Positions 33,358 to 40,222 of a stretch of DNA of 49,527 nt are shown here, piece by piece. How positions within the stretch are numbered: position 1 is the stretch's first letter; every line of letters begins with the position of its first letter. Position numbers and translations under genes: made by a program. Where the stretch lies: contig JAETNY010000004.1 in the NCBI GenBank assembly GCA_021771915.1, positions 144,945 to 194,471 on the forward strand, read 5' to 3'. Source of the stretch: Bacillota bacterium. Its GTDB lineage: Bacteria > Bacillota > Dehalobacteriia > UBA4068 > UBA4997. A model generated the notes under the pieces. It was not told the DNA's origin, did not search any database, and saw nothing but the letters and a program-made list of their open reading frames with translations.

Positions 33358-34344
33358 ATGATGAAAAAACTATTTTCCCTATTAACTGCTTTAATGCTTT
33401 TAACAGTGTTAGCAGCCTGTGGTAACGACACAACTCAATCCGGCAACAACGGAACCAACAACAATGATGAACAAAAAACAACCTATACTGTTGGTTTATT
33501 GCAACAGGTTGAGCACCCCTCTCTGGACGAAATTCGTACGGCAATCGTTGACGAAATTGCTGCTCGTGGCTATGCCGATGTAATTAAAATTGATTATGTA
33601 AACGGTCAAAATGATGCCAGCAACATGAATACCATTGTTCAAAAATTTATTGCTAATAAAGTTGATGCTATCATTCCGATTGCAACCAACGCAGCACAAA
33701 GCACAGCCAGCGCCACATCAGAAATTCCGATTATCTTCTCTGCGGTCACTGACCCGGTAGCGGCCGGTCTGGTTAACGATTTGAACAAACCAGATGGCAA
33801 TATCACTGGCGTATCTGATTATATTGATGTTAGCGCTATTTTTACTCTGGCTGAGGAGTTAACACCAGAAGTACAGTCTTATGGTTTGCTTTACAATATG
33901 GGCGAAGTAAATTCGGTTTCTGTAATCAATGAAGTTAAAGAATATTTAGAAGCCAAAGGTATTCCTTTTGAAGAAGCCTTTGTTACCAACATCGGCGAGG
34001 TAACCACGGCAGTACAGTCTTTGGTCGGCAAGGTTGACGCTTTATTTATCCCCATCGATAACACCGTAGCCGCGGCTATGAGCAATGTAGCTGAAATTGC
34101 TAACGCCAATCAAATACCGATTTATGTTGCCGCCGATTCATTGGTGCATGACGGCGGTCTGGCCACAGCAGGTATTAACTATACCCAGCTGGGCAAACAA
34201 ACTGCTGATATGCTGATTAGAATTTTAATTGACGGCGAAGCTATTGCCGATAATCCGGTAGAGGTTATGGAAGAATGTGCAGTTACCGTAAATCAGGAAA
34301 CTGCTGTTGCTATCGGCGTTGATGTAAGTAAATATACTGAATAA
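33358..34344 (+). CDS. ABC importer substrate-binding lipoprotein (TrpX-like)
   Basis: A 328-residue lipoprotein. The signal peptide has lipobox LAAC (Cys 21), then an Asn/Thr-rich linker. The rest is the two-lobe ABC_sub_bind fold: YTVGLLQQVEHPSLDEIRTAI, KFIANKVDAIIPIATNAAQS, IPIIFSAVTDPVAAGLV, LGKQTADMLIRIL. In Firmicutes this family under a Trp T-box has been called TrpX, with a proposed role in tryptophan uptake; the T-box here supports that. A cytoplasmic purine or other ligand cannot be ruled out by sequence. AAGAGGT precedes ATG 33358; ATG 33361 is the alternative. Permease and ATPase genes follow directly. Confidence 0.88.
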   Translation: MMKKLFSLLTALMLLTVLAACGNDTTQSGNNGTNNNDEQKTTYTVGLLQQVEHPSLDEIRTAIVDEIAARGYADVIKIDYVNGQNDASNMNTIVQKFIANKVDAIIPIATNAAQSTASATSEIPIIFSAVTDPVAAGLVNDLNKPDGNITGVSDYIDVSAIFTLAEELTPEVQSYGLLYNMGEVNSVSVINEVKEYLEAKGIPFEEAFVTNIGEVTTAVQSLVGKVDALFIPIDNTVAAAMSNVAEIANANQIPIYVAADSLVHDGGLATAGINYTQLGKQTADMLIRILIDGEAIADNPVEVMEECAVTVNQETAVAIGVDVSKYTE

Positions 34345-34365
34345 TTATGAAATAAGGTTTTTAAT

Positions 34366-35268
34366 ATGAGTTTAACACTTTTACAAGGCACATTGGAACA
34401 GGGTTTAATATATAGCCTGGTAGCATTAGGACTGTTTCTCTCTTTCCGCATTTTGAATATTGCAGATTTAACAGTTGACGGCGGCTTTACTCTGGGCTGC
34501 GCAACCGGTGCTGTTGCCACATTAGCCGGCCACCCATTTCTGGGCTTATGGCTGGCCCTGGGCGCCGGCGCTTTAGCCGGTTTGGTAACCGCTTTGTTGC
34601 AAACCAAACTTAAAGTTCAGCCAATTTTGGCTGGTATTATTACCATGACAGCCCTCTACTCTATCAATTTAATGATTATGGGTAATCGTGCTAACTTGCC
34701 GCTTTTAAAATGTGAAACTATTTATACCCTGCTCGCCCCCTATTTGCCAGCTAGTTATGACAAATTGATTGTTATAGGCTGCATTGTGGCAGTCGTGGTA
34801 ATCCTGCTTTACGTTTTTTTGAAAAGCGGCACAGGTCTGGCTGTACGCGCAACTGGCGACAATCCTGATTTGGTACGTTCTTCATCTATCAATCCTAGTT
34901 TCACCATCACAATCGGTCTTTGTCTGGCCAATGCCATGGTTGCACTTTCCGGCGCAATGCTGGCGCAATATCAACTTTTTTCAGACATCACCAATGGTAC
35001 TGGTATGGTAGTAATTGGTCTGGCTTCTCTGATTATGGGCGAAGCAATTATCGGTCGCGGCAGCATGCAGCGTTGTCTGTTTAGTACACTAATTGGCTCT
35101 ATTATTTATCGGCTGATTATTGCTGTGGCTATTACTTCCTCTCTGGCCGCCTCCAACTTAAAATTAATCTCAGCGGTTATTGTGGCAATTTCTATTTCCT
35201 GGCCGGCAATTAAAGAGAAAATAGAGTTTTTTAAACTAAAACAGGCCAGCAAAAAACAAATGCCTTAA
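34366..35268 (+). CDS. ABC importer permease (TrpY-like, BPD_transp_2 family)
   Basis: A 300-residue, very hydrophobic protein with about eight membrane segments. The opening TLEQGLIYSLVALGLFLSFRILNIADLTVDGGFTLG, and GNNPDLVRSS-type residues read here as GDNPDLVRSSSINPS, match the permease family used with ABC_sub_bind proteins. It forms the channel of the importer encoded by its neighbours and ends in a Lys-rich tail. It begins 21 bases after the binding-protein gene and ends 15 bases before the ATPase start. Weak ribosome binding site AAGG at 34354. Confidence 0.88.
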   Translation: MSLTLLQGTLEQGLIYSLVALGLFLSFRILNIADLTVDGGFTLGCATGAVATLAGHPFLGLWLALGAGALAGLVTALLQTKLKVQPILAGIITMTALYSINLMIMGNRANLPLLKCETIYTLLAPYLPASYDKLIVIGCIVAVVVILLYVFLKSGTGLAVRATGDNPDLVRSSSINPSFTITIGLCLANAMVALSGAMLAQYQLFSDITNGTGMVVIGLASLIMGEAIIGRGSMQRCLFSTLIGSIIYRLIIAVAITSSLAASNLKLISAVIVAISISWPAIKEKIEFFKLKQASKKQMP

Positions 35269-35283
35269 AAGGAAGTGTTAAAA

Positions 35284-36078
35284 ATGCTTGAACTGCAAAA
35301 TATCAATAAAACATTTAATAAAGGAACACCCAATGCCAAACAGGCCTTAAACAATCTTTCAATTCATTTATATCCGGGCGATTTTGTCAGCGTTATTGGT
35401 AGTAATGGCGCCGGTAAAAGTACGGTTTTTAACGCTATTGGCGGCAGTTTTCTATTGGACTCCGGTCATATCCTGCTGGAAAAAAAGGACATAACCTTTT
35501 TGCCAGAACATAAAAGAGCCCAACAAATTGGTCGTTTGTTTCAAGACCCCTTGCGCGGCACTGCTCCAAATATGACTATCGAGGAAAACCTGGCTTTGGT
35601 ATACCTGCGCGCTAATAAACACCGTACAATTTTTGGTATAACCAATAAGGAAAGAGATTTTTTTCGCAGTAAATTGGCTGAATTAAACCTGGGACTTGAA
35701 GACAGACTCAAAATCAAGGTGGGTTTGCTTTCCGGCGGTCAGCGGCAGGCTCTAACCCTATTAATGGCTACAATGATTACGCCTAAGCTTTTGCTTTTAG
35801 ATGAACACACCGCGGCTTTGGACCCAGCAACAGCGGATAAGGTTTTGGAACTTACAGCTAAAATTGTTGCTGCTGGCAATATAACCACTATGATGATTAC
35901 TCACAACATCGCTTCGTCGCTTAATTTGGGTAATCGCACAATAATGATGAATAATGGTCAAATCATTTTAGATATCAGCGGCGAGCAACGTAAACAAATC
36001 ACAGTACCACAGCTTTTGGAACTTTTTAAGGAAAAAAGCCAAACCGTTTTGGACGACGACCGCATTTTGCTGGCTTAA
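35284..36078 (+). CDS. ABC importer ATP-binding protein (TrpZ-like)
   Basis: A 264-residue ABC ATPase. Walker A is GSNGAGKST, the Q-loop is GRLFQDPLRG, the signature is LSGGQRQALTLLMA, Walker B is LLLLDEHTAALDP and the switch His is in MITHNIAS. All catalytic residues are present. Immediately downstream of the permease, it completes a three-gene importer behind the Trp T-box. ATG 35284 is preferred since AGGA (35270-35273) lies 10 bases upstream; GTG 35275 would be too near. The gene ends 32 bases before thiM, with no terminator between. Confidence 0.93.
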   Translation: MLELQNINKTFNKGTPNAKQALNNLSIHLYPGDFVSVIGSNGAGKSTVFNAIGGSFLLDSGHILLEKKDITFLPEHKRAQQIGRLFQDPLRGTAPNMTIEENLALVYLRANKHRTIFGITNKERDFFRSKLAELNLGLEDRLKIKVGLLSGGQRQALTLLMATMITPKLLLLDEHTAALDPATADKVLELTAKIVAAGNITTMMITHNIASSLNLGNRTIMMNNGQIILDISGEQRKQITVPQLLELFKEKSQTVLDDDRILLA

Positions 36079-36110
36079 ACCAGCCGAACCAATCATAAGG
36101 AGGTATTATT

Positions 36111-36923
36111 ATGCTGACTAAATGTATGGAAAATGTACGCACAACAACACCATTAATTCATGCAATTACCAACTATGTAACAGTAAATGATTGTGCTAAC
36201 GCCCTTTTAGCTTGTGGCGCTTCGCCTATTATGGCCGACGACCAGGCAGAAGTGGAAGAAATTACAGCCTTATGCGCCGCCACTGTTATTAATATTGGCA
36301 CATTAAATCAACGTACTATCTCGGCAATGCAGCTGGCGGCAGCCAAAGCTAACCAGCTAAACCATTGCCTGGTTCTAGACCCGGTTGGCGTTGGCGCTTC
36401 CCGACTGCGTACACAAACAGCTCAACAGCTGCTGGCAAACAATCATTTTACAGCAATTCGCGGTAATGTTTCAGAAATAAAAAGTTTGGCTTTAGGTACA
36501 GGCAGCACTCAAGGTGTTGACGCCAACATTGCAGATGCAATTACAGAAACCAATTTGCCGGAAGCCATTAATTTTATTCGTGCTTTCAGCAAACGCACTG
36601 GCGCTATTATCATAGTAAGTGGCGCTTGGGATATTGTTTCTGACGCCGAAAACAGTTATATCATCAAAAATGGCAATCCACTTATGAGTAAAATCACTGG
36701 CAGCGGTTGTATGTCAACCTGTATAATTGCCGCCTATTTGGCGGCTAATCCACAAAACATGCTGCAAGCAACTATTACCGCCGTTAGTTTAATGGGTTTG
36801 GCTGGTGAAAAAGCAGCTGCCATCAGTTCAGGTACTGGCAGTTTACGCAATAATATTTTAGATGGTTTGAGTTCTATAGACACTGAACAGCTGAAGGTTG
36901 GTGCTCAAATTGACAAATTCTAA
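36111..36923 (+). CDS. thiM: Hydroxyethylthiazole kinase
   Basis: A 270-residue ribokinase-fold enzyme that phosphorylates 4-methyl-5-(2-hydroxyethyl)thiazole for thiamine salvage. The start TTPLIHAITNYVTVNDCANALLACGASPIMADD is the family hallmark. The catalytic Cys/Gly loop is MSKITGSGCMSTCIIAAYLA, and the ATP-site region contains LDPVGVGASRLR. AAGGAGG precedes ATG 36111. It overlaps thiE by about 14 bases, depending on the thiE start. It follows the ABC importer closely, so it probably lies under the Trp T-box; no separate thiamine (TPP) riboswitch is visible. Confidence 0.95.
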   Translation: MLTKCMENVRTTTPLIHAITNYVTVNDCANALLACGASPIMADDQAEVEEITALCAATVINIGTLNQRTISAMQLAAAKANQLNHCLVLDPVGVGASRLRTQTAQQLLANNHFTAIRGNVSEIKSLALGTGSTQGVDANIADAITETNLPEAINFIRAFSKRTGAIIIVSGAWDIVSDAENSYIIKNGNPLMSKITGSGCMSTCIIAAYLAANPQNMLQATITAVSLMGLAGEKAAAISSGTGSLRNNILDGLSSIDTEQLKVGAQIDKF

Positions 36924-37548
36924 ACTTAAACAACAACTGCGTCTATATGCTGTTACAGATAATAGATGGACTGGCCGACAAACTTTAATGCAACAGATTG
37001 AAGCAGCGCTTCAGGGTGGTATAACCATGTTACAGCTGCGCGAAAAGCAAATGAACTCGTTAGACTTTCTGGCTGAAGCCAAGCTTGTCAAAAATTTATC
37101 TGATATATATAATGTACCCCTGATAATTAATGATAATTTAGATGTGGCATGCCAAAGTGACGCAGCTGGTTTACATATCGGCCAAGATGACGGCTCAATC
37201 GCAGTTGCACGCCAAAAGTTGGGTGATAATAAAATTTTAGGTGTTTCCGCCCAAACAGTTGAACAGGCACAAGCAGCTGAAGCTGCCGGCGCCGATTATT
37301 TGGGAGTTGGTGCAATCTTTACAACCAATACCAAAGATGATGCCCTGACACTTAATCTGGAAACACTTAAAGCAATCTGTCAGGCAGTTAAAATACCTGT
37401 TGTTGCTATTGGCGGCATTACTGCACAAAATATTCATATTCTGTTAGACTCCGGCATTGTAGGGGTTGCCGTTGTTTCAGCTATTTTTGCCCAGGCTGAT
37501 ATAACCACTGCCTGCCAAACTCTTTTGCATATATTGGAAAAAATATGA
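36910..37548 (+). CDS. thiE: Thiamine-phosphate synthase
   Basis: A 212-residue TIM-barrel enzyme that joins hydroxyethylthiazole phosphate and HMP pyrophosphate into thiamine phosphate. Motifs: LREKQMNSLDFL, PLIINDNLDVA, GLHIGQDDGS, LGVSAQTVEQ, YLGVGAIFTTNTKDDA and PVVAIGGITAQN. It overlaps the 3' end of thiM. Start codons TTG 36910 (giving MTNSKLKQQ), GTG 36901 and TTG 36898 are all possible. GAAGG (36893-36897) best suits the 36910 start, with a long spacing, so this end is uncertain. A terminator follows. Confidence 0.93.
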   Translation: MTNSKLKQQLRLYAVTDNRWTGRQTLMQQIEAALQGGITMLQLREKQMNSLDFLAEAKLVKNLSDIYNVPLIINDNLDVACQSDAAGLHIGQDDGSIAVARQKLGDNKILGVSAQTVEQAQAAEAAGADYLGVGAIFTTNTKDDALTLNLETLKAICQAVKIPVVAIGGITAQNIHILLDSGIVGVAVVSAIFAQADITTACQTLLHILEKI

Positions 37549-37672: not shown

Positions 37673-37879
37673 TTATTCAATATTAACAACTTCATATCCG
37701 GCATCTTCAACAGCCTGACGCAAAACGCTATCCTCAACAGCTTTAGCCAGCTGCACATTGGCTGTTTTGTTAGCCAAATCTACTATGGCCGTTACACCGT
37801 CAATTTGATTTAAAGCCTGCTCCACACGCCCTGAGCAATGACTGCAAGACATACCTTCAATATGCATAGTTTTTACCAT
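37673..37879 (-). CDS. copZ: Possible free CopZ-like copper chaperone from internal start in copA
   Basis: A 68-residue HMA protein in the same frame as the end of copA, starting at ATG 37879. It is preceded by GGAGGTG (37891-37885), giving GGAGG then 7 bases to ATG, an ideal bacterial ribosome binding site. The product [20 protein letters not shown] has the Cu(I)-binding CSHC and the length of known CopZ (about 69). Inside a continuous ORF such a site is not needed unless it is used. Separate translation would give a soluble chaperone besides the fused form. This is inference; only the site is seen. Confidence 0.5.
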
Positions 37880-40222
37880 TTTTTCACCTCCAATCAATGC
37901 ATGAACACCTATTTGTACATTTACAGCATTAGCTGGTAAAATATCAGCTTTAGTTTTCGTATGCTCTGTAAAACCTGGCTTAAAATTGCGCAGGCGCAGT
38001 GCATTTGTTACCACACACAAAGAACTGCAACTCATAGCCGCTGCCGCAAACATAGGATTGAGTTTCCAGCCCAAAACCGAAATGAAAACGCCGGCCGCCA
38101 AAGGAATACCAATACAATTATAAATAAATGCCCAGAAAAGATTTTCTTTAATATTAAGCACTACCCTCTTGCTTAACTGAAAAGCTGTTACAACATCAAG
38201 CAAAGAATTTTTCATCAAAACAACATCAGCTGCTTCAATCGCAATATCACTGCCTGCACCAATCGCAATACCAACATCAGCCGCCGCCAAAGCCGGAGCA
38301 TCATTAATACCATCGCCCACCATTGCTACTCTGGCCGAATGGCTTTGCAGCTGCCGCACAGCCAATTCCTTTTCTGCCGGCAAAACCTCTGCAATTACTT
38401 CTTTAATACCCACCTGTCTGGCAATTGATTTTGCGGTAATAGCATTATCACCAGTTAATAAGCAAACATCTACACCAAGCTTATTCTGTAATTCCCAAAT
38501 AGCCTGCTGACTTTGCGGTTTTACTACGTCAGCCACTGTCAAAATGCCCAAAAGCTGACCGGCACTGCCAAAATATAAATTAGTTTTACCCAAAGCGGCC
38601 AGGTTATCTACAGTTTGCTGCCAATCACCAAGAGAAATATTTTGTTCCTGCAACATATGATAATTACCTACAAAATAAGTCTGGCCTGCAATTTCACCAA
38701 TTATACCGCCGCCAGGTACCGCTCGATAATTATCAACTGACTGAAACTCAATCTGTCTGGCAACACATTCGGTAACGATTGCATAAGCCAAAGGGTGTTC
38801 ACTTTGTTTTTCCAGAGAACCAGCTAACTGCAAAAGCTCAGTTTCCCCAATGGCACAGGTTATAATATCTGTCACCACAGGTTTACCCTCGGTTACGGTG
38901 CCGGTTTTATCCAGCAAAATTTTATTTACATTTTGTAATGCTTCCAAAGACTCAGCTGATTTTAACAAAATACCATATTCTGCCCCTTTGCCTGTACCAA
39001 CCATAATAGCAGTTGGTGTGGCCAAACCCAAAGCACATGGACAGGAAATTACCAAAACGGCAATGCCGGTAGAAATAGCAAAGCCTAAACTGGCATCAAG
39101 CAACAACCAAATTATAGCTGTACACAAGGCAATAGAAATTACAACTGGCACAAACACACCAGCAATTTTATCAGCCAGTTTGGAAATATGCGCTTTAGAA
39201 GAATTTGCTTCTTCCACCAGATTAATTATTTGCGCTAAGGTTGTATCTCGACCTATTTTTTCGGCTTGCATTTTAAAATAACCAGCTCGGTTAATTGTAG
39301 CACCAATAACTTTAGAGCGAACGGTTTTCTCAACGGGTAAACTTTCACCAGTCAACATACTTTCATCAACTGAACCATGACCATCAATAATCACACCATC
39401 AACAGGAATAGCTGCACCAGCCTTTACAATCAAAATATCACCAATCTGCAAATCAGCAACCGGAACTTCCAACTCCTGACCATCTTTTTCCAACAAAGCA
39501 TTTTGCGGAGTCAGTTTCATCAGCTTTGTTATTGCGTCCGAAGTTTTATACTTTGAATGATTTTCCAGATATTTTCCCACTGTAACCAAGGTTAATATCA
39601 TTGCCGCGGACTCAAAATATAAATCCATTGCTAAATCCTGTAATAAAATCTGATTATCAGCTAAATAGGCCAAAACAATCTGCCCAATCACAAATAATCC
39701 ATACACCATTGCAGCACCGGAACCAATCCCAATCAATGAATCCATGTTAGGACTGCCATGTTGTAAAGCAGAAAAACCATTAGTAAAATATTTATAATTA
39801 AAGCAAATTACTGGTATAGTAAGTAACAATTCGATGATAGCCAAATACAGCGTGTTATGCAAAAAGCTGGGTAATGGCCAACCAAACATATGCCCCATAG
39901 CAATATAAAACAATGGCAGCGTAAACAAAAGAGAAAAAAGCAAACGCGATTTTGTTTTTTGCGCTTCAACACTATATTGATTTTTATTAACAAAATCATT
40001 CTCAGCCTGCAAAGCAGCAGCATACCCGGCCTTTTCAACTACCTGACAAATTTGCTCAGGATTGGTATTTTTAGTTTCATAAGTCACTGCCATGTTGTTT
40101 TGCAGCAAATTAACATTAACCGTCAAAACGCCATTTTGCGCCTTCACAGCTTTTTCAATATGAGCCGAGCAGGCAGAACAGGACATACCTAAAACATCAA
40201 ATTTTGCTTTTACAACTGACAT
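37673..40222 (-). CDS. copA: Copper-exporting P1B-ATPase CopA with C-terminal CopZ-like domain
   Basis: An 849-residue copper-pumping ATPase. The N-terminal HMA domain has [10 protein letters not shown] (C15, C18). Membrane helices follow, then the metal-site motif SCPCALG (C394, C396), the phosphorylation motif DKTGT (D438), the HP motif SEHPLA and GDGINDAPA. After the last membrane helix (about residue 745) comes a linker and a second HMA domain with [10 protein letters not shown] (residues 790-799) up to the end, the size of free CopZ. A C-terminal HMA on CopA is unusual. The internal start described separately could yield free CopZ. SD for ATG 40222 is GAAAGGAC on the minus strand. It should expel cytosolic Cu(I). 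Confidence 0.95.

Follow-up and report, generated by a model that had tools for sequence, protein, structure and literature searches.

The copper ATPase gene copA of the window analyzed here (the whole 49,527-nucleotide stretch of contig JAETNY010000004.1, assembly GCA_021771915.1, Bacillota bacterium) very likely gives rise to two proteins from one mRNA, a CopA-CopZ fusion and, by internal initiation, a predicted free CopZ. The gene ends in a CopZ-like domain joined in frame to the pump, the start site inside it is strong, and that site is conserved at the nucleotide level across a deep clade. Ribosomes loading at the 5′ start would make an 849-aa Cu(+) pump with the CopZ domain on its C-terminal tail, and ribosomes starting independently at the internal GGAGG/ATG would make a free 68-aa CopZ, which may bind Cu(I) in the cytosol and deliver it to the pump; the fused copy could serve as a tethered chaperone or as a regulatory metal-binding domain. 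Initiation at the internal ATG, the ratio of the two products and the chaperone role of each form are what we infer from these sequence data. Dual-product copA is probably conserved across Clostridia and some other phyla, providing free CopZ and a self-chaperoned pump; after a separate gene and frameshifting, this would be the third route to both forms, with lineages switching between fused and separate arrangements. No report on internal initiation in copA, CopA-CopZ fusions or C-terminal metal-binding domains (MBDs) in Clostridia was found in the open-licence literature. The features of the locus are as follows.

37673-40222, minus strand: copA, copper P1B-type ATPase with a C-terminally fused CopZ domain (long product), 849 aa; open frame, TIGR01511.
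40022-40201, minus strand: N-terminal HMA domain, residues 8-67, with CSAC (Pfam).
37880-37972, minus strand: linker, residues 751-781, following the last membrane segment; both its length and its sequence differ between relatives.
37887-37891, minus strand: internal Shine-Dalgarno sequence (SD) GGAGG, inside GGAGGTG (37885-37891), 7 nt before the ATG, -13.6 kcal/mol.
37877-37879 (complement), minus strand: internal start codon ATG, Met782 of the long form; conserved in relatives.
37676-37879 (37673-37879 including the shared stop), minus strand: nested copZ, a predicted 68-aa free copper chaperone with a CSHC metal site; CopZ models.

The copA product scored 578.5 bits against TIGR01511 (copper-translocating ATPase; curated cut-off of 397) and contains the features of a CopA, namely a CPC motif in a membrane helix, DKTGT and an N-terminal HMA with CSAC. 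A first-pass annotation of this DNA had described the copA frame as continuing through a linker into a CopZ-like HMA domain, with ATG 37879 at the domain start and GGAGG 7 nt upstream, and both descriptions hold: the frame is open over 849 aa, Pfam assigned it two HMA stretches, E1-E2_ATPase and Hydrolase, and NCBIfam CopZ models matched residues 784-846, corresponding to the second HMA (about 784-846), which follows the last membrane segment after a linker of about 30 residues. This C-terminal HMA carries the metal site MxCxHC as GMSCSHC. The minus-strand DNA around the internal SD/ATG reads ATTGGAGGTGAAAAAATG, and the mRNA at the linker end reads ATTGGAGGTGAAAAAATGGTAAAAACT, ATG 37879 being codon 1 of the 68-aa protein. 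The residue encoded just before this ATG is K, so that trypsin cleavage there would imitate an internal start. Since the 68-aa form remains below the curated NCBIfam CopZ cut-offs (58.7 against 85, 58.0 against 91 and 54.6 against 62 bits), though clearly related to solved CopZ structures (6ff2, E = 1.2e-12; 1k0v, E = 1.9e-9; 1cpz, E = 3.1e-7), we refer to it as CopZ-like.

To one side of copA, positions 33358-37548 encode a TrpXYZ-like ABC transporter (substrate-binding lipoprotein, permease and ATPase) and, after it, thiM-like and thiE-like genes, which are overlapping open reading frames (ORFs); by reading of the translations, this is probably an operon for uptake and salvage of thiamine precursors. 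An Rfam scan of the window returned no RNA family and no riboswitch reaching threshold.

The window itself served as the chance test for the strength of the internal SD/ATG. When the window's 31 long ORFs were scanned, the copA site had the best SD of all 290 in-frame ATGs inside them (-13.6 kcal/mol; runner-up, -9.3), and of 1,700 ATGs on both strands of the window, ATG 37879 alone was at or below this value, although SD strength inside a translated ORF is no proof of initiation because elongating ribosomes compete for the site. The 3′ end of the host 16S was sought to verify the anti-SD; as 16S is absent from this assembly, energies were computed against the standard anti-SD CACCUCCUUU. This choice is upheld by the strong SDs (down to -12.5) that also precede other ORF starts in the window.

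To establish the distribution of the arrangement, an HMA-free query (the ATPase core) was run against 291 genomes of the class of G078 (Schaedlerella), yielding strong CopA matches in 241. The 110 loci read from this unbiased sample comprised 43 copA genes fused to a C-terminal HMA, 66 unfused and 1 cut. An earlier locus set was biased, its query having contained the internal Met, and the main claims rest on the HMA-free sample instead. Together with relatives and species genomes, the HMA-free sample gave 129 fused loci, mainly from Clostridia, with others labeled Bacilli, Coriobacteriaceae, Treponema and Elusimicrobiales. Fused arrangements with an internal start were seen in L043, L077, L115 and L111, from records labeled Elusimicrobiales, Treponema and Coriobacteriaceae, pointing to horizontal transfer or to a range extending beyond Clostridia. 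Cultured carriers of the arrangement include Acetobacterium tundrae, Schaedlerella arabinosiphila, Hornefia butyriciproducens and Butyrivibrio.

In 123 of the 129 fused loci, the first C-terminal HMA has an in-frame start codon (ATG in 119, GTG in 4) 9-15 codons ahead of its CxxC; in 99 of these 123 the distance is exactly 11 codons, the point at which free CopZ proteins begin. The first-pass annotation had named absence of the site from relatives sharing the fusion as the observation that would speak against internal initiation; instead, the start is retained almost throughout, and the comparison of fused and separate loci that it proposed clearly favors internal initiation. An SD of ≤-8 kcal/mol precedes 107 of the 123 internal starts (87%), against 2.1% of the 2,759 control ATGs, which lie in frame elsewhere in the ATPase cores of the same genes (Mann-Whitney on SD energy, P = 2e-73). 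The result withstood thinning to 60% core identity (internal start in 30/30 fusions, SD ≤-8 in 29), and in the HMA-free sample 42 of 43 fused loci have the start on the first C-terminal HMA, the remaining one (L200) having it on the second and final HMA. The median SD energy is -9.3 at internal starts, and likewise at separate copZ genes that follow an unfused copA and at copA's own start. As a negative control, non-first N-terminal HMAs have an ATG in 5 of 66 cases and a strong SD in 0 of 66. The great majority of C-terminal HMAs bear the CxHC chaperone signature, and most N-terminal HMAs bear CxAC. In the genus-mate L007, the internal site is kept despite a diverged linker.

Conservation of the site is seen in the nucleotides rather than in the encoded residues. 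The internal SD occupies two codon phases and encodes KE, GE, EE, TE, GG and other residues, and base preference upstream of the internal ATG is near background except for a peak at -13 to -9. When codons were redrawn synonymously from each gene's own usage (500 runs), SDs of ≤-8 arose in a mean of 35% and a maximum of 48% of cases, compared with the 87% observed; this null is conservative, because the linker residues themselves appear chosen to permit AAGGAG. The start region of the mRNA likewise had less structure than its synonymous controls (mean z = +0.94). The distance from the ATPase core to the site ranges from 9 to 73 codons across fused loci, and the intervening sequence varies too, while spacing from SD to ATG is tightly fixed. 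These spacings bear on whether the SD-like motif might be a translational pause element, delaying synthesis of the tail so that the last membrane helices can insert or fold first. Pausing at SD-like sequences has been suggested for bacteria, and the motif does follow the core, at 9-73 codons. A pause, though, would work without a fixed distance to an ATG and without a Met opening the domain, and the distance held constant is that to the ATG, not to the core, leaving this explanation scarcely credible.

Sixty-nine rows of a tree built from CopA cores form a clade with a support of 99; 67 of them are fused loci (62 with the site). Over the whole tree, the locus switches between the fused and the unfused state at least 13 times; this was a quick reconstruction in which placement of long branches is unsure. 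Pairwise core identity among all fused loci has a median of about 56%, with long branches. The arrangement is ancient and of wide occurrence rather than a peculiarity of the genome studied here. This matters for the reading that a copA and its downstream copZ were recently fused by loss of the copA stop, with the old copZ start signal persisting unused. A fusion of this kind is plausible, given how often unfused loci in the class (45 of 65) pair copA with a neighboring copZ that has the same SD and start. However, the depth and support of the fused clade make a recent relic unlikely, SD and ATG have persisted amid a randomized linker, and SD conservation exceeds the synonymous null; we regard a relic as highly improbable. 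Start signals without a use would have decayed over such a span, as the remainder of the linker has.

The fate of the separate copZ gene points the same way at the level of the locus. An adjacent copZ accompanies 45 of 65 unfused copA loci in the unbiased sample, versus 0 of 40 fused loci (Fisher P = 3e-14). Six fused loci lack the standard internal start (L089, L095, L114, L086, L066 and L200). L089 and L095 have lost it, and in each the copA stop is followed directly by a separate HMA gene, after 50 nt in L089 and after 13 nt in L095; L114 and L086 have neither an internal start nor an adjacent copZ, with an HMA ORF only elsewhere in the genome; and L066 has an in-frame ATG with a strong SD slightly farther upstream than the standard site. 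Tandem pairs of C-terminal HMAs occur in copA of L200, L073 and L066, and in L200 and L073 a strong SD and ATG lie on the last HMA, as if the terminal domain alone were meant for release.

Copper ATPases with C-terminal metal-binding domains are known, Archaeoglobus CopA being one, and the C-terminal HMA could accordingly work solely within the pump as a regulatory or delivery domain, any internal initiation being minor and functionless. That account leaves unexplained both the conservation of an ATG at the exact CopZ N terminus and an SD in two codon phases, nor does it explain why fused genes have no separate copZ beside them, or why one returns on loss of the internal start. We therefore consider it improbable and retain internal initiation as the preferred reading.

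In the host genome (98.6% complete), four HMA domains score above cut-off, two in copA and two in another large ATPase-type ORF; with all of them located in ATPases, the host has no stand-alone copZ. The latter two (G000:C21:112609-113001) are in tandem, within the 898-aa ORF that encodes a second metal ATPase. Across 42 genomes with a fused copA, 24 have another small HMA ORF and 18 have none at the threshold used, so the free product is not the sole possible chaperone everywhere. A strict genome-wide rule that an internal start implies no other copZ is ruled out by these 24 of 42; locally, beside copA, the internal start does replace a separate copZ, and the genome-wide pattern is softer.

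If the proposed dual output is real, annotation that shows one long copA only has hidden copper chaperones across a large group of gut-dwelling and anaerobic bacteria. The locus would also represent a deeply conserved nested in-frame gene and a convergent counterpart of the E. coli frameshift, suggesting strong selection for obtaining chaperone and pump from one transcript, and its study could settle the role of the C-terminal metal-binding domain in its fused and free forms.

Separate copA-copZ operons are found in many Clostridia, in Bacillus subtilis and in Enterococcus. They share with fused copA the same two domains, their order, the SD strength and the start position; the difference is a stop between the genes, without which a fused pump-chaperone is predicted to be made as well. 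Archaeoglobus fulgidus CopA is a copper ATPase that, like this copA, has an HMA at both ends, its C-terminal MBD being thought to be a regulatory or delivery domain. AfCopZ is a separate protein, and to our knowledge no nested chaperone has been reported in A. fulgidus CopA. With two MBDs, AfCopA is active without them (PMC11970713).

In E. coli, programmed -1 frameshifting lets copA encode, besides the pump, a CopZ-like chaperone of roughly 70 aa (PMC5009743). There, likewise, one copA gene supplies a pump and a small chaperone, but E. coli CopA(Z) is the N-terminal part, made by a frameshift and an early stop, whereas here the C-terminal domain would be made from a new start. After the N-terminal HMA (codons 50-130), all slippery heptamers of the form X XXY YYZ are in the wrong phase, leaving no sign of E. 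coli-type frameshifting in this copA.

In-frame internal starts are an established class, mapped by Ribo-RET in infB, clpB, mrcB and other genes and including cases conserved between E. coli and Salmonella (PMC11005335). Such genes yield an N-terminally truncated product from the internal start, as predicted for copA, which has the conserved internal start and well-spaced SD that mark the class. The nearest analogue among them is the C-terminal domain of ArcB, a soluble domain of a membrane protein. The open-licence papers searched name no copper pump among such genes. In contrast to the E. coli and Salmonella cases, the copA site is conserved across a class and reaches other phyla.
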